64,000 bases of DNA from contig NZ_CP117709.1 in assembly GCF_028622875.1 (NCBI RefSeq), positions 3,348,001 to 3,412,000 on the forward strand, written 5' to 3'. The stretch comes from Streptomyces sp. MMBL 11-1 (lineage in GTDB: Bacteria; Actinomycetota; Actinomycetes; Streptomycetales; Streptomycetaceae). Positions 3,167 through 31,992 of this stretch are shown here, in pieces (position 1 is the stretch's first letter; the number at the start of each line of letters is the position of its first letter). A model generated the notes under the pieces. The model saw nothing but the letters and a program-made list of their open reading frames with translations. It was not told where the DNA came from and did no database searches. Made by a program: the position numbers and the translations under genes.

Positions 3167-4567
<1,401 letters not shown>

Positions 4568-4680: not shown

Positions 4681-4748
4681 TCACACCCTCCGTGGGGCCC
4701 GGTCCGGGGCCTAGTCACACCCTCCGTGGGGCCCGGCCCGGGGCCTAG
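4681..4748. repeat. 34-bp direct repeat, two copies, overlapping a stop codon
   Basis: Two tandem 34-bp copies at 4681-4714 and 4715-4748 differ by one base. Each begins TCACACCCTCCGTGGGGCCC and ends GGGGCCTAG. The second copy contains the TAG (minus strand 4747-4745) that ends the PPOX-family gene. It looks like duplication of the gene's last bases plus 3' flank. Just upstream, about 4596-4622, a CCCCGCGA/TCGCGGGG hairpin is a likely terminator. Confidence 0.85.
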
Positions 4749-5149
4749 ATACGGCCGACGACCTTGCGCGGGGAGACGCGGACGACGACACGGGGGTCGT
4801 CGCGGTCGGAGTCCGGGTTGAACTCCGCGTACGGCTTGCCGGTGTACTTCATCGAGAGCTCGTCGATCAGTTCCTGCCCGCCGTCCGTCGTCAGCGTCGC
4901 CTCGCCGCGGATCTCCGCGTAGGTGTACGGGGCGTCGAAGGGCTGGACGACCACGGTGACGCGCGGGTCGCGGCGGAGGTTCTTCTCCTTGCGGCGGCCG
5001 ACGGTGGTGGAGATCAGGACGTCGTCGCCGTCGCGCTTGACCCAGACCGGGGAGACCTGGGGGCTGCCGTCGGGCTGGATGGTGGCGATGTTGACGAAGA
5101 CGGGACTGTCGAGCAGGTTCTTGAGCTCGGCGGAGAGGGTGGCGGTCAT
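4745..5149 (-). CDS. PPOX-class F420/FMN-dependent oxidoreductase
   Basis: A 134-residue single-domain split beta-barrel protein of the pyridoxamine-5'-phosphate-oxidase-like class. Actinobacteria use many of these as F420- or flavin-dependent reductases in the cytoplasm. Family features: the N-terminal LLDSPVFVNIATIQPDGSPQ strand-turn, the VSPVWVKRDGDDVLIST segment, the basic GRRKEKNLRRDPRV cofactor/phosphate-contact helix and the Y-AEIRGEA strand. Start ATG at 5149 has an AGGAGG ribosome site. It is 48 bp downstream of the MFS gene and co-oriented with it, so it could be the last gene of that transcription unit. Substrate unknown; choice between F420 and FMN is inferred. Confidence 0.85.
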   Translation of the reverse strand: MTATLSAELKNLLDSPVFVNIATIQPDGSPQVSPVWVKRDGDDVLISTTVGRRKEKNLRRDPRVTVVVQPFDAPYTYAEIRGEATLTTDGGQELIDELSMKYTGKPYAEFNPDSDRDDPRVVVRVSPRKVVGRI

Positions 5150-5197
5150 GCGTACGTCCTCCTGGGGTGCGGTTCGGTACTTCGTCCGGTGCTGCTC

Positions 5198-6742
5198 CTA
5201 CCCCGCGACCGCGCGCGTTCCCTGATCCTTCCCGCCCCGGCCCACCGGAAGAGTGAACGCCAGTGCCGCCCCCGCCAGGGGGACCGCGGCGAGCGCCGCC
5301 CACCGCACGGGCGCGGGCGCGTCGAGCAGCGCGCCGGTCGCCGCGCTCCCCCCGAGGACGGCGATCCCGGAGACGGAGGACAGCGCCCCCGTGGCCAGCC
5401 CGAGCTGCCGGTCCTCGACCAGGTCGGGCACCAGGCCCCGGGCTGCGGGGACCAGCAGCATCTGGCCCAGGGTCAGCAGGACGACGAGCGCCGCGCCGGG
5501 CAGCAGTCCGCCGGGGCCGGCGGGGGTCAGCGGTACGGCGGCGAACCCGGCGGCGACGACCACCAGGCCGGTGACCAGTGCGGTACGCGGGGCGATCCGG
5601 TGGGCGGAGAAGCGGGTCAGCGGCATTTGGGCGACGACGACGAGCAGCGAGGACAGCGCGAAGAGCCAGCCGAGCGCGGCCCCCGATCCGGTGGCCCGCT
5701 CCACCTCGACGGGCAGCGAGAGATAGAGCTGGTTGTAGGCGACAAGGTAGGTGCTGTACGCGAGGCAGAGCAGCAGGAACGGCCGGTTGGTGAACACCGC
5801 GCGCCAGGACGACCGCCCCGGTCGGGCCGTACGGGTGACGGCGCCCGGGGCCTGTGCCCCGCCCCCTCCCTGTCCCTGTACCCCTTCCCGTTTCCGTTCC
5901 CGTTTCCGTGTCCGTACGGGGTCGGCGCGTGGCATCAGACGGGCGTGCCCGGCCAGTACGGCGACGAAGACGACGGCCCCGGCGAGGCAGGCGGCCCGGA
6001 AGCCGCCGCCGAGCAGCAGGAGCAGGGAGCCGAGCAGCGGCCCGATGAACGCCCCGGCCTGCCCGGCGGCGGAGAACAGGGCGAGGACGTGGGCGCGCGG
6101 GGCGCCGGTGTCCCGTTCGTGCCGGACGGCCTCGCGGGCGGCCTCGGACTCGACGGCCGGGGAGAACAACGCGGCGGCGAAGCCGATGAGGAGCACCGCG
6201 GCGATGACAGTGGCCGTGGACCCGGCGAAGGCGAGCCAGCCGAACCCGGCGATCCGCAGGGCGCAGCCCGCCAGCACGACGGGGCGTGGTCCGTACCGGT
6301 CGGTGAGCGCGCCACCGACGACGAACAGCCCCTGCTGGCTGAAGGTGCGCAGCCCGAGGACGAGGCCGACGAGCCAGCCCGCCATGCCGAGGCCGCTGCC
6401 GAGGTGGGTGGCCAGGTAGGGCAGGACGGCATAGAAGCCGGTGTTGAAGGCGAACTGGGTGGCGGTGAGGAGCCGGAGGTACGGCGTGGGCGCGCTCGCG
6501 AACCGGGGCCGGCGGCGGCTCTTCCCCTCGGCAAGGGCTCCTGCGGGCCCGCCGGCGTGCGCGGGTTCCGGCTCGGGCGCGCCGGTGCGGGTGGGCGCGG
6601 GCTCGGGCGCGTCGGTGCGGGCGGGCGCGGGCGCGGGTTCGCCGGTGCGGGTGGGCGCGGGCGCGACGGTGCGGGTGGGCGCGGGCGCGACGGTGCGGGT
6701 GGGCGCGGGCGCGTCGGCGGGCTCCGGTTCGTGTCGGGTCAC
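5198..6742 (-). CDS. MFS transporter coupled to an ABC permease
   Basis: Predicted 514-residue, roughly 12-helix major facilitator permease. The start is the GTG at 6742, which overlaps the TGA of the upstream permease gene (GTGA), so translation is probably coupled. The first ~75 residues are cytoplasmic and contain imperfect copies of APAPTRTV, encoded by a GC-rich minisatellite at about 6590-6720. The MFS motif between TM2 and TM3 reads GGALTDRYGPRP. A charged loop with RTRKRERKRE separates the two halves. The family includes drug and metallophore exporters. Its position in the operon with a peptide/nickel-type importer behind a Zur-like site suggests export or recycling of a metal chelate. 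That role is inference; substrate unproven. Confidence 0.85.
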   Translation of the reverse strand: MTRHEPEPADAPAPTRTVAPAPTRTVAPAPTRTGEPAPAPARTDAPEPAPTRTGAPEPEPAHAGGPAGALAEGKSRRRPRFASAPTPYLRLLTATQFAFNTGFYAVLPYLATHLGSGLGMAGWLVGLVLGLRTFSQQGLFVVGGALTDRYGPRPVVLAGCALRIAGFGWLAFAGSTATVIAAVLLIGFAAALFSPAVESEAAREAVRHERDTGAPRAHVLALFSAAGQAGAFIGPLLGSLLLLLGGGFRAACLAGAVVFVAVLAGHARLMPRADPVRTRKRERKREGVQGQGGGGAQAPGAVTRTARPGRSSWRAVFTNRPFLLLCLAYSTYLVAYNQLYLSLPVEVERATGSGAALGWLFALSSLLVVVAQMPLTRFSAHRIAPRTALVTGLVVVAAGFAAVPLTPAGPGGLLPGAALVVLLTLGQMLLVPAARGLVPDLVEDRQLGLATGALSSVSGIAVLGGSAATGALLDAPAPVRWAALAAVPLAGAALAFTLPVGRGGKDQGTRAVAG

Positions 6743-8460
6743 TTCAGGCCCGCCGGAGTGCGCCCGCGCACGGCGGCCGAGGTGAGGACGGCCAGTGCGC
6801 CGAGGACGGCGAGCGCGGCGGCGGGAGCGAGGACGGCCCACGGGGCGCGTTCCGCGTACGGCATGTTCTCCGACAGCATCCGGCCCCACTCCGGCGCCGG
6901 GGCCTGCGTGCCGAGGCCGAGGAAGCCGAGGGAGGCGAGGGCCAGCGCGATGGCCGGGATGCGGAGCAGGGCGTGGCGCACCACCGGCGGCAGGACCCCG
7001 GGCAGGACGTGGCGGCGCAGGAGGTGGGCCCGGTCCGCGCCGAGGGCGACGGCGGCGGCGAGGTGCGGGGCCGCCTTCTCCTGGGCGTACAGGGCGGCGG
7101 TGTGGGCGGCGAGCGGGGCCCAGGCGACGGCGGCCACCGCCGCCGCGGCGCCCCAGGGGCCCGGACCGGCGATGCCCGCGACGACGAGGCCGGCGAGCAC
7201 GGCGGGGAGCGCGTTCGCCGTCTCGGTGAGCGCCCCGGCGCGGGCGGCCCCGAGGAGCAGCCCGAGCACGAGGGTGACGGCTCCGACCGCCACGGCGGCC
7301 AGCGCGGTGCGGGCCGCACCGTGGCCGAGGCGGGCGAGGACGTCGCGGCCGAGGTTGTCGGTGCCGAAGGGGTGCGCGGCGGAGGGGCCGGCGAGGCGCG
7401 CGGCCGTGTCGACGTGGAGCGGATCGCGCAGGAGGCCCGCGACGGTGACGGCGATCAGGAGGCCGCCGAGGGCGACGGCGGCGACGGCGAGCGCGCGGCG
7501 GCCGGGCAGCCGGGGCGCGACGAGGGCGGGCAGCGCGCGGTCGGTGAGGGCGGGGCCGAGCAGCGTGCGGACGGCGAGGCGGGAGAGCAGGCCCGCGGCG
7601 ACGCCGAGGAGGAGCAGGACCAGCACGGCCGCCTGGAGGACGGGCAGGTCCTGGGCGAGGGCGGCGGCCAGGGCCGTACCGCCGAGGCCGGGGATCGCGT
7701 ACAGCGTCTCGACGGCGACCGCCCCGCCGGTCAGCCCGACCGTGACCAGGCCGAGCTGGGGCAGCAGCCCAGGCAGCGCCCGGCGCAGGGCGTGCCGGGC
7801 GACGATGCGGCCGGGCAGGCCGTTCGCGGCGGCGGCGCGGGCCCAGGGTTCGGCGAACGCGCCGGGCAGGGCGTCGTCCAGCAGCCGGCCGAGCAGCGCC
7901 CCGGCGGGGACGCCCATGGCGAGCGCGGGCAGCACGAGCTGGTCGGGGGCGCCCCAGCCGAGCGCCGGGAACCACCCGAGGTGCACGGCGAGGACCGTGG
8001 CCAGTACGGCGGCGAGCAGGAACTCCGGCAGCGCGGCGAGCACCGCCGCCCCCGCTCCGGCGCGCACCCGGACGATCCGGCGCGCGGCCCCGCGCCGGAG
8101 GGTGGCGGCGCTCAGCGCGAGGGCGAGGAGCACGGCGACGGCGAGGGAGGCGGCCATCAGGGTGAGGGAGGTGCCGAGGGCGGCGGTCACGTCGGGTCCG
8201 ACGGGCTGCCCGGAGACCCAGGACGTGCCGAGGTCGCCGCGTACGAGCCCGCCGAGCCAGCCGCCCAGGACGTGCCGGGGTCCGCCGTCGAGCCCGGTCT
8301 CGGCGCGGATCGCGGCGAGGGTCTCGGGTGTCGGGGCCCGGTCGGCGTACCGGGCGTGCAGGATCGTGCGGGCCGGGTCGGTCCGGGTCAGCCAGGGCAG
8401 CAGCCCGATCACCGCGACGACGGCGAGCAGCGTGCCGAGCCGTCCCGCGAGGTACTTCAC
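6739..8460 (-). CDS. Fused DppB-DppC type ABC transporter permease
   Basis: Inner-membrane permease of the peptide/nickel (NikBC/DppBC) class, with both permease subunits fused in one 573-residue chain. The N-terminal half (residues 1 to about 270) has the DppB-like start VKYLAGRLGTLLAVVAVIG and the GDLGTSWVSGQPV segment. The C-terminal half (about 300-573) has the DppC hallmark HPFGTDNLGRDVLARL. Its EAA-loop is VALGADRAHLLRRHVLPGVL, the contact site for an ATPase. Start GTG at 8460, 4 bp after the stop of the binding-protein gene. No ATPase gene occurs in the operon or the window, so an ATPase must come from elsewhere if the importer works. Fusion is clear; substrate unknown. Confidence 0.88.
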   Translation of the reverse strand: MKYLAGRLGTLLAVVAVIGLLPWLTRTDPARTILHARYADRAPTPETLAAIRAETGLDGGPRHVLGGWLGGLVRGDLGTSWVSGQPVGPDVTAALGTSLTLMAASLAVAVLLALALSAATLRRGAARRIVRVRAGAGAAVLAALPEFLLAAVLATVLAVHLGWFPALGWGAPDQLVLPALAMGVPAGALLGRLLDDALPGAFAEPWARAAAANGLPGRIVARHALRRALPGLLPQLGLVTVGLTGGAVAVETLYAIPGLGGTALAAALAQDLPVLQAAVLVLLLLGVAAGLLSRLAVRTLLGPALTDRALPALVAPRLPGRRALAVAAVALGGLLIAVTVAGLLRDPLHVDTAARLAGPSAAHPFGTDNLGRDVLARLGHGAARTALAAVAVGAVTLVLGLLLGAARAGALTETANALPAVLAGLVVAGIAGPGPWGAAAAVAAVAWAPLAAHTAALYAQEKAAPHLAAAVALGADRAHLLRRHVLPGVLPPVVRHALLRIPAIALALASLGFLGLGTQAPAPEWGRMLSENMPYAERAPWAVLAPAAALAVLGALAVLTSAAVRGRTPAGLK

Positions 8461-8464
8461 GCGG

Positions 8465-9997
8465 TCACCCGACGCGGGTGTCGGCGGTGATGAGGGTGCG
8501 CTCCATGGGGTCGAGGGCGACGCCCCGGACGCGGGTGTCGTCGTAGCCCTGCACGAAGCGCTCGTGGACGAGCGGGACGAGGGCGTCGGAGCCGAGGATC
8601 GCGGCCTCGGCGGCCATCTCGGCCCGGTGGCGGGCGTCGGTGTCGGCGAGGGCGGCGGCCTTGTCGACGGCGGCGTCGACGGGGGTCGCGCAGAGCTGCG
8701 TGATGTTGAAGCTGCCGTCGCAGGTGAAGTCGGAGGCGAGGTAGGAGACCGGGTCGGCGGTGTCCAGGAGGGTGTTGCGGGCCTGGATGAACGCGTCGTA
8801 CTTCCCGGCGAGCGCGTCGGCCTCCATCTGCGCGTAGTCGCGGACGACCTGCTTGACGGTGAAGCCGCGCTTCTCCAGCTGCTGCTGGACGACGGTGGCG
8901 ACCTCGGGCAGCTCGGGCCGGTTGGTGTAGGTGGCGAGCACGATCTGCCGCGTCCCGGCGACCTCGGCGGGGGCGGCGGCCTTCGCGCGGCCGGTGGGGG
9001 CGGTGCGCAGGTCGGCGGCCCACGGGACGCCGGGGCCCAGCAGCCCCCGCGCGGTGTCGGCACGCCCTTCGTAGACGCCGTCGACGAGGGCCTGGGAGTC
9101 GATGGCCTCGCGGGCGGCGGCGCGCATCGCCGGGTCGGCGAAGACGCCGCGTCCGGTGTTCAGGGAAAGGCCGTTGGTGCGGGCGGAGGGGAACTCGTGG
9201 ACCAGGCCGTCGCCGAGCAGCGAGGCCTGGGAGATCGGTACGTACTCGGCGACGTCGACGTCCTTCGTCCGCAGCGCGTTGGCGCGGGCGGTGCCGTCGG
9301 CGACGAACTTCACGTCGGCGCCGGGGGCCTTGGCCCTGCCGCCCCAGTAGGTGTCGTTGCGCTCCAGGGTGGCGCTGACCGCGCCGTTGACCTCGGCGAG
9401 GGTGAAGGGGCCGGTGGCGTGCCCGGCGGGGTTCACCCGGGCCGCGTCCTTGTACGCGGCGGCGGACAGGATGCTCAGGGAGGGGTTGGCGAGCCGCTGG
9501 GGCAGCAGCGGCTCGGCGTCCTTCGTGGTGATCCGTACGGTCCGGGCGTCCTCGGCCGTGGCGGTGAGCGTGGTGTCGGACAGCACCCGGGGCTTGGGGG
9601 ACGCCTTCTGCGCGGCGGTCAGCGAGCGGACCACGGCGGCGGCGTCGAGCTTCGTCCCGTCCTGGAAGACGGTGTCCTCGCGGACCGTGAACTCCCAGAC
9701 CCGGTCGCCGTCGCGCTTCCAGGAGGCGGCGAGAGCCGGCTCGGCCTCCCCGTTCCGGTCGAGCCGGGTGAGTCCTTCGACGACGGCGAGCCGGCTCAGG
9801 GTGACGGCGTCGTCGCCGTACGGGGACATGGCCTGGGCGGGCGGGAAGGCCATGGCCACCTTCAGCCGCTGGTCGCCGCCGGAGCCGCCGGAATCCGTGG
9901 AGGAGGTGCAGGCGGTGGCGACGGGCACGAGGAGCGCGGCGGCGGCCAGGGGCAGCGCGACGCGGCGGCGGTGAGGGCGGGGACGGGGGGTGGGCAT
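8465..9997 (-). CDS. Family-5 solute-binding lipoprotein of a peptide/nickel/metallophore ABC importer
   Basis: Predicted 510-residue extracytoplasmic binding protein of the SBP_bac_5 (OppA/NikA/CntA) family. A basic N-terminus (MPTPRPRPHRRR) and hydrophobic stretch lead to the lipobox VATAC30, then a Ser/Gly linker. Family features include LSRLAVVEGLTRLDRNGE, the WEFTVREDTVFQDGTKLDA segment and a C-terminal VPLVHERF. It is followed by the fused permease 4 bp away. Start ATG at 9997. A 15-bp Fur/Zur-type palindrome lies 15 bp upstream, so the operon is probably repressed by a metal-loaded Fur-family protein. Families of this type import peptides, nickel chelates or metallophores; the operator favours a metal-related cargo. 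Confidence 0.88.
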   Translation of the reverse strand: MPTPRPRPHRRRVALPLAAAALLVPVATACTSSTDSGGSGGDQRLKVAMAFPPAQAMSPYGDDAVTLSRLAVVEGLTRLDRNGEAEPALAASWKRDGDRVWEFTVREDTVFQDGTKLDAAAVVRSLTAAQKASPKPRVLSDTTLTATAEDARTVRITTKDAEPLLPQRLANPSLSILSAAAYKDAARVNPAGHATGPFTLAEVNGAVSATLERNDTYWGGRAKAPGADVKFVADGTARANALRTKDVDVAEYVPISQASLLGDGLVHEFPSARTNGLSLNTGRGVFADPAMRAAAREAIDSQALVDGVYEGRADTARGLLGPGVPWAADLRTAPTGRAKAAAPAEVAGTRQIVLATYTNRPELPEVATVVQQQLEKRGFTVKQVVRDYAQMEADALAGKYDAFIQARNTLLDTADPVSYLASDFTCDGSFNITQLCATPVDAAVDKAAALADTDARHRAEMAAEAAILGSDALVPLVHERFVQGYDDTRVRGVALDPMERTLITADTRVG

Positions 9998-10004
9998 CGC
10001 AACG

Positions 10005-10033
10005 ACCTTATATGAAAATGATTGTCGTCTAAC
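10005..10033 (-). promoter_or_regulatory. Zur/Fur-type operator inside a likely leaderless promoter
   Basis: TGAAAATGATTGTCG at 10013-10027 (plus strand) is a near-perfect 7-1-7 palindrome. It matches the actinobacterial Zur box as I know it (TGAAAATGATTTTCA) at 13 of 15 positions. On the minus strand it lies between a possible -35 (TTAGAC, 10032-10027) and a TATAAGGT region (10012-10005), whose -10 would place transcription start at or beside the ATG at 9997. Binding would therefore block the promoter directly. It does not resemble the iron DmdR/IdeR box. Confidence 0.65.
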
Positions 10034-10730
10034 TGGCGGGGGCGGTCCGGGTGAAGCCGCCGACGGAGGCCGGGCCGGCCCCGGGCATCGGCAGTTCGAA
10101 GTGGACGATTCCCTGCCCGCCCCCGGGCAGCGTCCGCTCGTCGCACACCTCGCGGGCCAGCGAACGCCAGAAGGGCTCGGCGCCCGGCACGGCCGGGTCG
10201 GTGTGCAAGTACAGCGCCTCGTACCCCCCGGCCCTGGCGGCGAACTCCCCCAGCTCGCGCACCAGCCGCCGGGCCAGTCCGTGCCTGCGGTGCTCGGGGC
10301 GCACATAGATCCGGCAGAGCTGCGCGGTGGTCCCGGAGGGGAAGCGCTCGGCGACCCACGGGGGGTTGGGCGGCGCCTGCGGCCCCCGGTCGCGTACGGC
10401 CCCGGTGGCGACGATCTCGCCGCCGTGCTCGACGACGAGCAGGGTGCAGCGCTCCGGGCGCAGGTAGGCGGCCTGGGGGTCGATGATGTCGGCGTGCCAG
10501 CGGGGTACGTAGCCGGACTTCAGGTCGCGGTAGACGGTGTCGAGCATCACGGCCCGCGCTCCGCCGAGGTCGTCGGCGGTGGCGGTGCGCAGGACGTATC
10601 CGGCGGCGCCGTCGCCTCCGTCACCTGCGTGGCCCCCGTGATCCCCGTGGTCCCTGTAGGTCCCGTGGCCCCCGTGGGCGGTCCGGTCATCGGTCCGGTC
10701 GGTCGCCGTCACCGTGGTCGCGCTGGTCAC
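10029..10730 (-). CDS. GNAT-family N-acetyltransferase
   Basis: Predicted 233-residue cytoplasmic acetyl-CoA-dependent acetyltransferase. The first ~50 residues are low complexity, rich in His/Gly/Asp/Thr, with repeats such as HGGHGTYRDHGDHGGH. The GNAT domain occupies about residues 55-210. The acetyl-CoA P-loop is CRIYVRPEHRRHGLARRLV, followed by YEALYLHTDPAVPGAEPFW. Start taken as GTG 10730 (VTSATTV), with a GGAGG upstream; another GTG at 10757 lies inside an inverted repeat. The gene ends just before the Zur-type site of the transporter operon. Acceptor substrate unknown; the His-rich leader could touch metal, which is speculation. Confidence 0.8.
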   Translation of the reverse strand: MTSATTVTATDRTDDRTAHGGHGTYRDHGDHGGHAGDGGDGAAGYVLRTATADDLGGARAVMLDTVYRDLKSGYVPRWHADIIDPQAAYLRPERCTLLVVEHGGEIVATGAVRDRGPQAPPNPPWVAERFPSGTTAQLCRIYVRPEHRRHGLARRLVRELGEFAARAGGYEALYLHTDPAVPGAEPFWRSLAREVCDERTLPGGGQGIVHFELPMPGAGPASVGGFTRTAPAS

Positions 10731-10755
10731 CGGTGCCACTCCCGCCTCCTGCCTC

Positions 10756-10792
10756 ACATCGCTTGCACCTTCAGCGTACGTGCAAGCGATGT
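10756..10792. promoter_or_regulatory. Perfect 13-bp inverted repeat between ispF and the GNAT gene
   Basis: ACATCGCTTGCAC (10756-10768) and its exact complement GTGCAAGCGATGT (10780-10792) flank 11 bases. It is only about 26 bp before the GNAT start and 34 bp after the ispF stop. It lacks a T-run on the minus strand, so an operator is as likely as a terminator. Confidence 0.6.
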
Positions 10793-10825
10793 GCAGCAGG
10801 CGCGGGGCCGGGCGCCGACCGGGCG

Positions 10826-11347
10826 TCAGGCGGTCCGGTACACCAGGGCGGTCGCGATACCGGCGATGCCCTCGCCCCGGCCGGTGAAGCCGAGCCCGTC
10901 GGAGGTGGCGGCGGAGAGCGAGACCGGGGCGCCGACGGCGGCGGACAGCACCTCCTGCGCCTCCTCGCGCCGCTTGCCGATCTTCGGGCGGAGGCCGACG
11001 ACCTGGACGGCGACGTTCCCGATCTCGAAGCCCTCGGCGCGGACGATCCGGGCGGCTTCGGTGAGCAGCGTGATGCCAGCGGCCCCGGACCACTCGGGGC
11101 GGCCGGTGCCGAAGTGCTGCCCGAGGTCGCCGAGGCCGGCGGCGGAGAAGAGCGCGTTGCAGGCGGCGTGCGCGACGACGTCGGCGTCCGAATGGCCGGC
11201 CAGACCGGGGCCCTCCCCCTCCCACTTCAGGCCGGCGCACCACAGCTCACGGCCCTCTTCGAAGGCGTGGATGTCGGTGCCGATGCCGACGAGCGGGATG
11301 ACGGGGGCGGGGACGGGGGCTCCCGCTCCGGGGTTCTCAGAAACCAT
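10826..11347 (-). CDS. ispF: 2-C-methyl-D-erythritol 2,4-cyclodiphosphate synthase
   Basis: Fifth step of the MEP isoprenoid pathway: CDP-ME-2-phosphate to MEcPP with release of CMP, in a cytoplasmic homotrimer. The 173 residues contain the metal-binding DxH at residues 25-27 (GIGTDIHAF), the [13 protein letters not shown] segment that supplies the third ligand, [10 protein letters not shown], and the C-terminal [18 protein letters not shown]. The first ~15 residues ([15 protein letters not shown]) are a non-conserved extension. Start ATG at 11347 overlaps the end of ispD by 11 bp, so ispD and ispF are translationally coupled. Confidence 0.95.
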
Positions 11348-31944: not shown

Positions 31945-31992
31945 ATAGTGCAACACCCTTGCTAACTTTTGCAAGCACATGCTTGCAAAAGT
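31945..31992 (-). promoter_or_regulatory. Promoter and 28-bp palindromic operator of the XRE gene
   Basis: ACTTTTGCAAGCA (31965-31977) and TGCTTGCAAAAGT (31980-31992) are perfect 13-bp arms around CA. On the minus strand, TTGCAA (31974-31969), 18 nt, then CACTAT (31950-31945) form a plausible promoter whose -35 is inside the palindrome. The best candidate ligand is the XRE protein itself. Confidence 0.8.

Follow-up and report, generated by a model that had tools for sequence, protein, structure and literature searches.

How does a permease of the ABC type work when no ATPase is encoded beside it, and what does it carry? The question is raised by a four-gene cassette of Streptomyces sp. MMBL 11-1, which lies on the minus strand between cysS and ispF in a 64,000-nucleotide stretch of contig NZ_CP117709.1 (the window; coordinates without a locus name refer to it). 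Its first gene encodes a GNAT acetyltransferase (10029-10757; PF00583), for which no relative in the PDB was found at E 0.001. Then come a lipoprotein receptor of substrate-binding protein family 5 (SBP5, here SBP; 8465-9997; PF00496, nearest NCBIfam model Opp5A_nikA), a fused DppB-DppC permease (6739-8460), which holds two BPD_transp_1 stretches and keeps both coupling (EAA) loops, and an MFS transporter (5198-6742), a probable exporter. A sequence-only reading of this DNA had described a closely packed permease, receptor and MFS gene with the GNAT gene upstream, and both the genes and the spacings are confirmed: the permease and MFS genes overlap by 4 bp, and the gaps are 4 bp between SBP and permease and 31 bp between GNAT and SBP. 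It had also pointed out the missing ATPase, and indeed a domain search of the block's five proteins (these four and a PPOX-family neighbour) found no ABC ATPase, nor did it find an opine dehydrogenase, a nicotianamine-synthase-like protein or a racemase. In our opinion the cassette is best read as working like a Nik/Cnt-type importer while failing the defining feature of such importers, namely ATPases of their own. We give about an even chance to the more specific proposal that it is an uptake module for nickel or zinc chelates, controlled by the nickel regulator Nur together with Zur, and that it borrows its ATPase.

Where did the ATPases go? The earlier reading had suggested looking for homologues of the fused permease with an adjacent ATPase gene, and such relatives do exist (28 rows of the tree described below). 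When the whole class was searched, 28 of 394 genomes proved to encode a close fused permease (E 1e-90 or better), and 14 of these genomes belong to nine genera other than Streptomyces. Among the 14 loci taken from these genera, two Dpp-type ATPases are encoded in 13, the exception being L290, where none is matched; MFS is likewise matched in 13, all except L292, and on the opposite strand in L295 and L296. Among the ATPase-bearing loci of Streptomyces, the MFS gene stands 3' of the ATPases in L300, L301 and L061; it was not seen after them in L060, L062-L069, L302 and L305. The order SBP, permease, two ATPases (D and F), MFS is kept in L300, L301, L061 and L286-L289, and therefore deletion of D and F yields the order of the window, whose MFS protein is a homologue (about 60%) of the one closing several ATPase-bearing operons. 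We also reconstructed a permease tree of 80 rows, 28 with a neighbouring ATPase and 52 picked from the 107 without one (a short search with no bootstrap, rooted on L299). In it 51 ATPase-less permeases form one clade with an SH-aLRT value of 99, and the ATPase state changes twice in total, the second change being L290. On this tree, the Streptomyces-type ATPase-less clade arose by one loss.

The ATPase-bearing operon, for which we found no published name, shares homologous SBP and permease genes with the cassette and often has an MFS gene as well. It differs from the cassette in possessing both ATPases, in having no credible Nur box at the operon (28 loci scored) and in the GNAT gene, which is matched in one such operon only, L035. 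A Zur box lies at most 400 bp upstream of the SBP or an ATPase gene in 22 of the 28 loci. Nur matches in five of the 28 were rejected: four of them are readings of the Zur box, and one is away from the operon. In the samples examined, the Nur box accompanies GNAT and the lack of ATPases. In the scenario that we propose, the ancestor would have been an actinobacterial operon under Zur control that encoded SBP, fused permease, a pair of Dpp-type ATPases and MFS; the ATPase pair, placed after the permease and before MFS, would have been lost in a single event, and this loss would have been accompanied by the gain of the GNAT gene and the Nur box.

It is convenient that an ATPase-bearing paralogue resides in the same genome as the cassette. 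This locus, L035 (G000:C1:566000-585000), encodes GNAT, SBP5, a fused permease 58% identical to that of the window, and two Dpp-type ATPases; no MFS gene follows the importer genes. It has Zur boxes before the SBP gene and before a downstream pair of an rpmF-like (tentative) and a CobW gene.

How complete is the absence of ATPases in the clade? The ATPase-less sample consisted of the best 80 of 545 confirmed stretches and the loci of the genome sample, 106 in all and 103 without duplicates. Gene content was counted in 86 loci whose flanks were long enough, a set that includes the window and is free of duplicates. Of these, 79 have GNAT, 81 SBP, 74 an MFS gene following the permease, and 68 all three. 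In one of them (L134) the same strand holds a match to a Dpp-type ATPase no more than 5 kb away. L054 has an ABC ATPase (35%) at a distance of 5.3 kb from its permease, which was rejected, as the L050 member of its family carries the general ABC domain alone, and a partial match upstream of the SBP gene in L106 (45% over about one third of the query) was left uncounted. One branch of the clade lost the SBP as well: L050, L054, L102, L118, L129 and L150 have GNAT, permease, MFS and a Nur box, with no SBP match and no Dpp-type ATPase. In another branch (L055, L058, L059, L106 and L303), SBP and permease occur with neither GNAT nor MFS. Thus a single genus offers a natural series, from ATPase-bearing and Zur-boxed operons through ATPase-less ones to SBP-less ones with a nickel-type box. 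In L055 (5648-10948) the SBP and fused permease genes adjoin a divergent gene pair that encodes an ABC-3 permease and an ABC ATPase, and position 6521 holds a Zur-like site.

The same facts can be taken to mean that SBP and permease have ceased to be an ABC importer and act as an ATP-free channel, as a sensor or as a partner of the MFS protein. The tree has one ATPase loss and no regain, a nearby same-strand ATPase turned up in a single locus, and six loci have given up the SBP too. We nevertheless regard this as unlikely. The coupling loops are intact even in the SBP-less forms, they have no evident use without an ATPase, and there are known ABC importers that are powered by an ATPase in trans: PMC10147376 describes S. 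aureus FhuC as powering importers (Isd, Hts, Sir) whose operons lack an ATPase. Those importers resemble the cassette in taking their ATPase from another operon, although they belong to other transporter families. A bolder version, in which this family of ABC-type permeases left the ABC mechanism and became, together with GNAT and MFS, a new Nur/Zur-switched transporter of nickel or zinc ligands, seems to us quite unlikely.

The coupling loops deserve closer attention here. Their glycines 214 and 474 are invariant in the 106 ATPase-less and in 27 ATPase-bearing rows. Moreover, the loop of the B half is nearer to its counterparts in ten Dpp/Opp/Nik operons of the same genome (1.39 per column) than is the loop of the ATPase-bearing kin (0.57). 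Because the loops are conserved, the sequences suggest that an ATPase in trans is likelier than none; an ATPase shared from elsewhere, as first proposed, remains the likeliest reading. The genes themselves are maintained. Compared with L038, L039, L076 and L094, dN/dS is 0.18-0.25 for the permease, 0.29-0.39 for SBP, 0.17-0.37 for MFS and 0.15-0.28 for GNAT, next to 0.13-0.24 for cysS, and all four cassette genes are under purifying selection. It is therefore very improbable that the cassette is a decaying relic of the paralogous importer. The loss of the ATPases, and of the SBP in one branch, would fit decay, but dN/dS stays within 0.15-0.39 for the four genes, the operators are conserved, and the reading frame of the window permease has no internal stop.

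Which regulator, then, would switch the cassette? A Fur/Zur-type operator had been proposed, and the sequence bears this out. The box TGAAAATGATTGTCG (10013-10027; no strand assigned) lies between the GNAT and SBP genes, 15 nt 5' of the SBP start codon. For scoring, a Zur matrix was derived from the znuA promoters of 29 relatives (58 sites, own genome excluded); on it the box reaches 23.4 bits, and the next-best site of the window 3.3. A pattern modelled on it has one match in the 64 kb with 0.03 expected. Allowing two mismatches at most, TGAAAATNATTTTCA occurs five times in the 8.5-Mb genome, this box included, and of the other four sites, one is at znuA, one at the paralogous importer and one close to a FecCD importer. 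(In L036, 5659-9908, or G000:C1:7745658-7749907, FecCD-type importer genes have two Zur-like sites in or adjoining them.) A first threshold of 27.1 bits was discarded, since its background contained genuine Zur sites; with the background freed of these, none exceeds the threshold of 15.2 bits that we used. Above it, a Zur box is present between GNAT and SBP in 27 of 29 relatives located between cysS and ispF, and 35 of 59 relatives in other places have a Zur box above it too.

Control is probably not exerted by Zur alone, judging from the promoter of the GNAT gene. Upstream of this gene there is a Nur-type box, CTGCACATCGCTTGCA (10781-10796, minus strand), with a weaker inverted copy at 10752-10767; the sequence-only reading had not mentioned it. 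Both sodF and nikABCDE are Nur targets. The GNAT upstream regions of the relatives have in common TTGCAC-N5-TTGCA or TTGCACATCATATGCATTA, or close variants, and PMC3919588 gives the Nur box as tTGCaa-N5-ttGCAA. As an element, the inverted repeat 10752-10796 was rejected, its strict pattern being matched only in L081, L084 and L098 and degenerate in the others; by sequence, the conserved unit is a single Nur-type box. In the own genome, the best match outside the window is in the sodF promoter. A genome scan for the box gave 22 matches overall against 21 for the control, and therefore only the closest matches are informative. We thus turned to a Nur matrix made from the sodF promoters of 27 relatives, own genome excluded, with the best matches to TTGCA-N6-TTGCA as sites; the own sodF site scores 33.1 bits on it. 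In the roughly 300 bp that precede the conserved core of GNAT, a Nur box above 9.3 bits is found in all 88 loci with a GNAT match, and one above 12.95 bits in 76 of them, whereas shuffled control regions exceed these values in 10 and 2 of 880 cases. A background of 345 kb contains five sites above 9.3 bits, two of which are both readings of one box at a nikABCDE-like operon (L329:2770-7948; G000:C1:7799769-7804947). This box scores 27.5 bits, and its unasked appearance supports the matrix. NikA, NikD, NikE and a nickel permease are among the leading models for the operon, and none of them reaches its cut-off. With the natural series described above and the paralogue in the same genome, the reach of the Nur regulon beyond sodF and nikABCDE becomes a testable matter.

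What the system resembles can be judged from its proteins as well. Nickel-importer models rank best for both SBP and permease, ahead of peptide models, all below cut-off, and when folds were compared by VIA-align, the one predicted for SBP came closest to S. aureus NikA, with a lead of 1.2 Z. CntA and CntC models match far below their cut-offs. The Streptomyces nikABCDE operon (L329, G000:C1:7.80 Mb) is like the cassette in combining SBP5 and a Dpp-type permease with a Nur box in front; unlike the cassette, it has separate NikB and NikC and its own ATPases NikD and NikE, and the L329 stretch shows no MFS match and no Zur box. Staphylopine Cnt comprises the importer CntABCDF, the MFS exporter CntE and the synthases CntKLM. 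The cassette shares with it an SBP5/Opp-type importer, an MFS gene and metal control (here predicted from the boxes), and differs in lacking ATPases and synthase genes in the block. The likeness to a Cnt/Nik-type metal importer with an MFS partner, drawn by the sequence-only reading, stands. An MFS gene beside an Opp-type importer is described in PMC7438024 for a portion of the opine zincophore clusters. The opine dehydrogenase domain PF10100 had no match in any of 12 genomes, and the control genomes gave no match either. In the literature reached, which was mostly without subscription papers and without supplements, we found no description of the cassette.

The MFS and GNAT genes invite a different view, that of a device for detoxification or export, in which metal ligands or metal-mimic antibiotics, having entered through it or by another route, would be acetylated by GNAT and expelled by MFS. 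The two genes are about as frequent as SBP in the clade and both are kept in the SBP-less branch, and the best NCBIfam model of the MFS protein is the efflux family MdtH, below cut-off. However, the boxes resemble those of nickel and zinc uptake genes, and MFS was already part of ATPase-bearing operons that have no GNAT match; we find this view improbable. With the cassette as an uptake module, a shortage of nickel (releasing Nur), of zinc (releasing Zur) or of both would lead to its expression; the lipoprotein receptor would take a metal-ligand complex, the permease would be powered by an ATPase pair encoded elsewhere, and MFS would most likely export the ligand or its GNAT-modified form.

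Which ATPases could these be? A search for PF08352-bearing ATPases found 18 matches in 10 operons of the own genome, and one more pair (L071, near the metallophore-like set described below) brings the number of pairs to 11. NikDE may be one co-regulated candidate, because the nikABCDE operon has a Nur box, and the L035 pair may be another, for the own genome only. As a universal partner the L035 ATPases were ruled out: G005, G019, G029, G052 and G053 carry the cassette and have no such permease or ATPase at high similarity. Likeness of coupling loops was also tried for naming the partner and did not discriminate. The locus makes it testable whether permeases of the Opp/Dpp/Nik families can share ATPases. 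Streptomyces sugar importers, members of another transporter family and likewise without an ATPase in their operons, are served by the ATPase MsiK, which is encoded in another operon.

Several observations weigh against an uptake module with a borrowed ATPase and should be considered together. The window's own Nur box is weak, at 9.4 bits; the 9.3-bit bar was placed just under this score, and a Nur-like site at 31946-31964 scores higher, 11.8 bits. For this copy the nickel box is therefore the weaker half of the case. Among the relatives in other places, 24 of 59 have no Zur box, and in 25 the Zur box is upstream of GNAT, where in several loci it adjoins a divergent gene and may, by its position, serve that gene. 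The coupling loop of the C half is not more canonical (0.68, against 0.94 in the ATPase-bearing kin), and coupling-loop likeness singles out no operon of the own genome, that of NikB included. The PF08352-bearing ATPases searched include no orphan of the Dpp type; all 11 pairs adjoin their own SBP and permeases. Finally, when folds are compared, NikA leads peptide and other ligand binders by no more than a few Z units. This closeness, together with membership in the Dpp/Opp superfamily, would suit a di/oligopeptide (peptide-nickel) transporter of the ordinary kind; its metal boxes would then serve peptide-bound metal or be incidental. Yet nickel models beat peptide models for both SBP and permease, and metal-regulator boxes are kept in most relatives, so such a transporter appears rather improbable to us.

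Regarding a metallophore, the claim that no synthase is present concerns the block. A candidate metallophore gene set lies 2.8 Mb from the cassette, beside the ATPase-bearing paralogue (L035:1-7762; G000:C1:566000-573762; minus strand), with a weak Zur-like box of 13.6 bits. It encodes an ATP-grasp ligase, a DUF364 protein ('putative heavy-metal chelation'), an SbnA-like PLP enzyme (below cut-off), an MR_MLE protein, an MFS protein, a methyltransferase and an SBP5 with a Dpp-type importer; relatives of the PLP enzyme at 77% or more occur in 15 of 61 genomes, own included. The cassette thus points to an unstudied metallophore-like gene set. In Streptomyces sp. TRM68416 (L096:3692-7799) an SbnA-like gene and a second MFS gene are upstream of the cassette, as is a possible open reading frame for a Fur-type regulator (tentative; no Pfam match).

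The cassette had been taken for an insertion between cysS (3167-4567, minus; the downstream flank) and ispF (10826-11347, minus; the upstream flank), and the comparison of junctions called for by that proposal agrees. Of 61 Streptomyces genomes, 59 have both genes on a single contig, and the cassette lies between them in only 7 of these 59 readable junctions, therefore it is an insertion and not universal at this place. Cassette-free junctions have a gap of 44-1016 bp in 48 of the 59 and of 3.2-4.0 kb in 4. The PPOX gene (4745-5149, minus; Rv1155-type, F420; TIGR03618), formerly counted in the block, has to be removed from it: it was found, once on the opposite strand, at 16 of 20 cassette-free junctions (20 of 52, picked mostly for larger gaps) and hence is not part of the system. 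There is no PPOX match in L040-L042, which do carry the cassette. The four-gene cassette is an insertion beside an older PPOX gene.

Two details of the window may be added. The first 90 or so residues of the MFS protein are rich in proline and alanine, with Pro/Ala/Thr-rich repeats at 6470-6742, and its true start may be farther downstream. Between the cysS and PPOX genes, at 4681-4748, there are two tandem 34-nt copies that are 97% alike.

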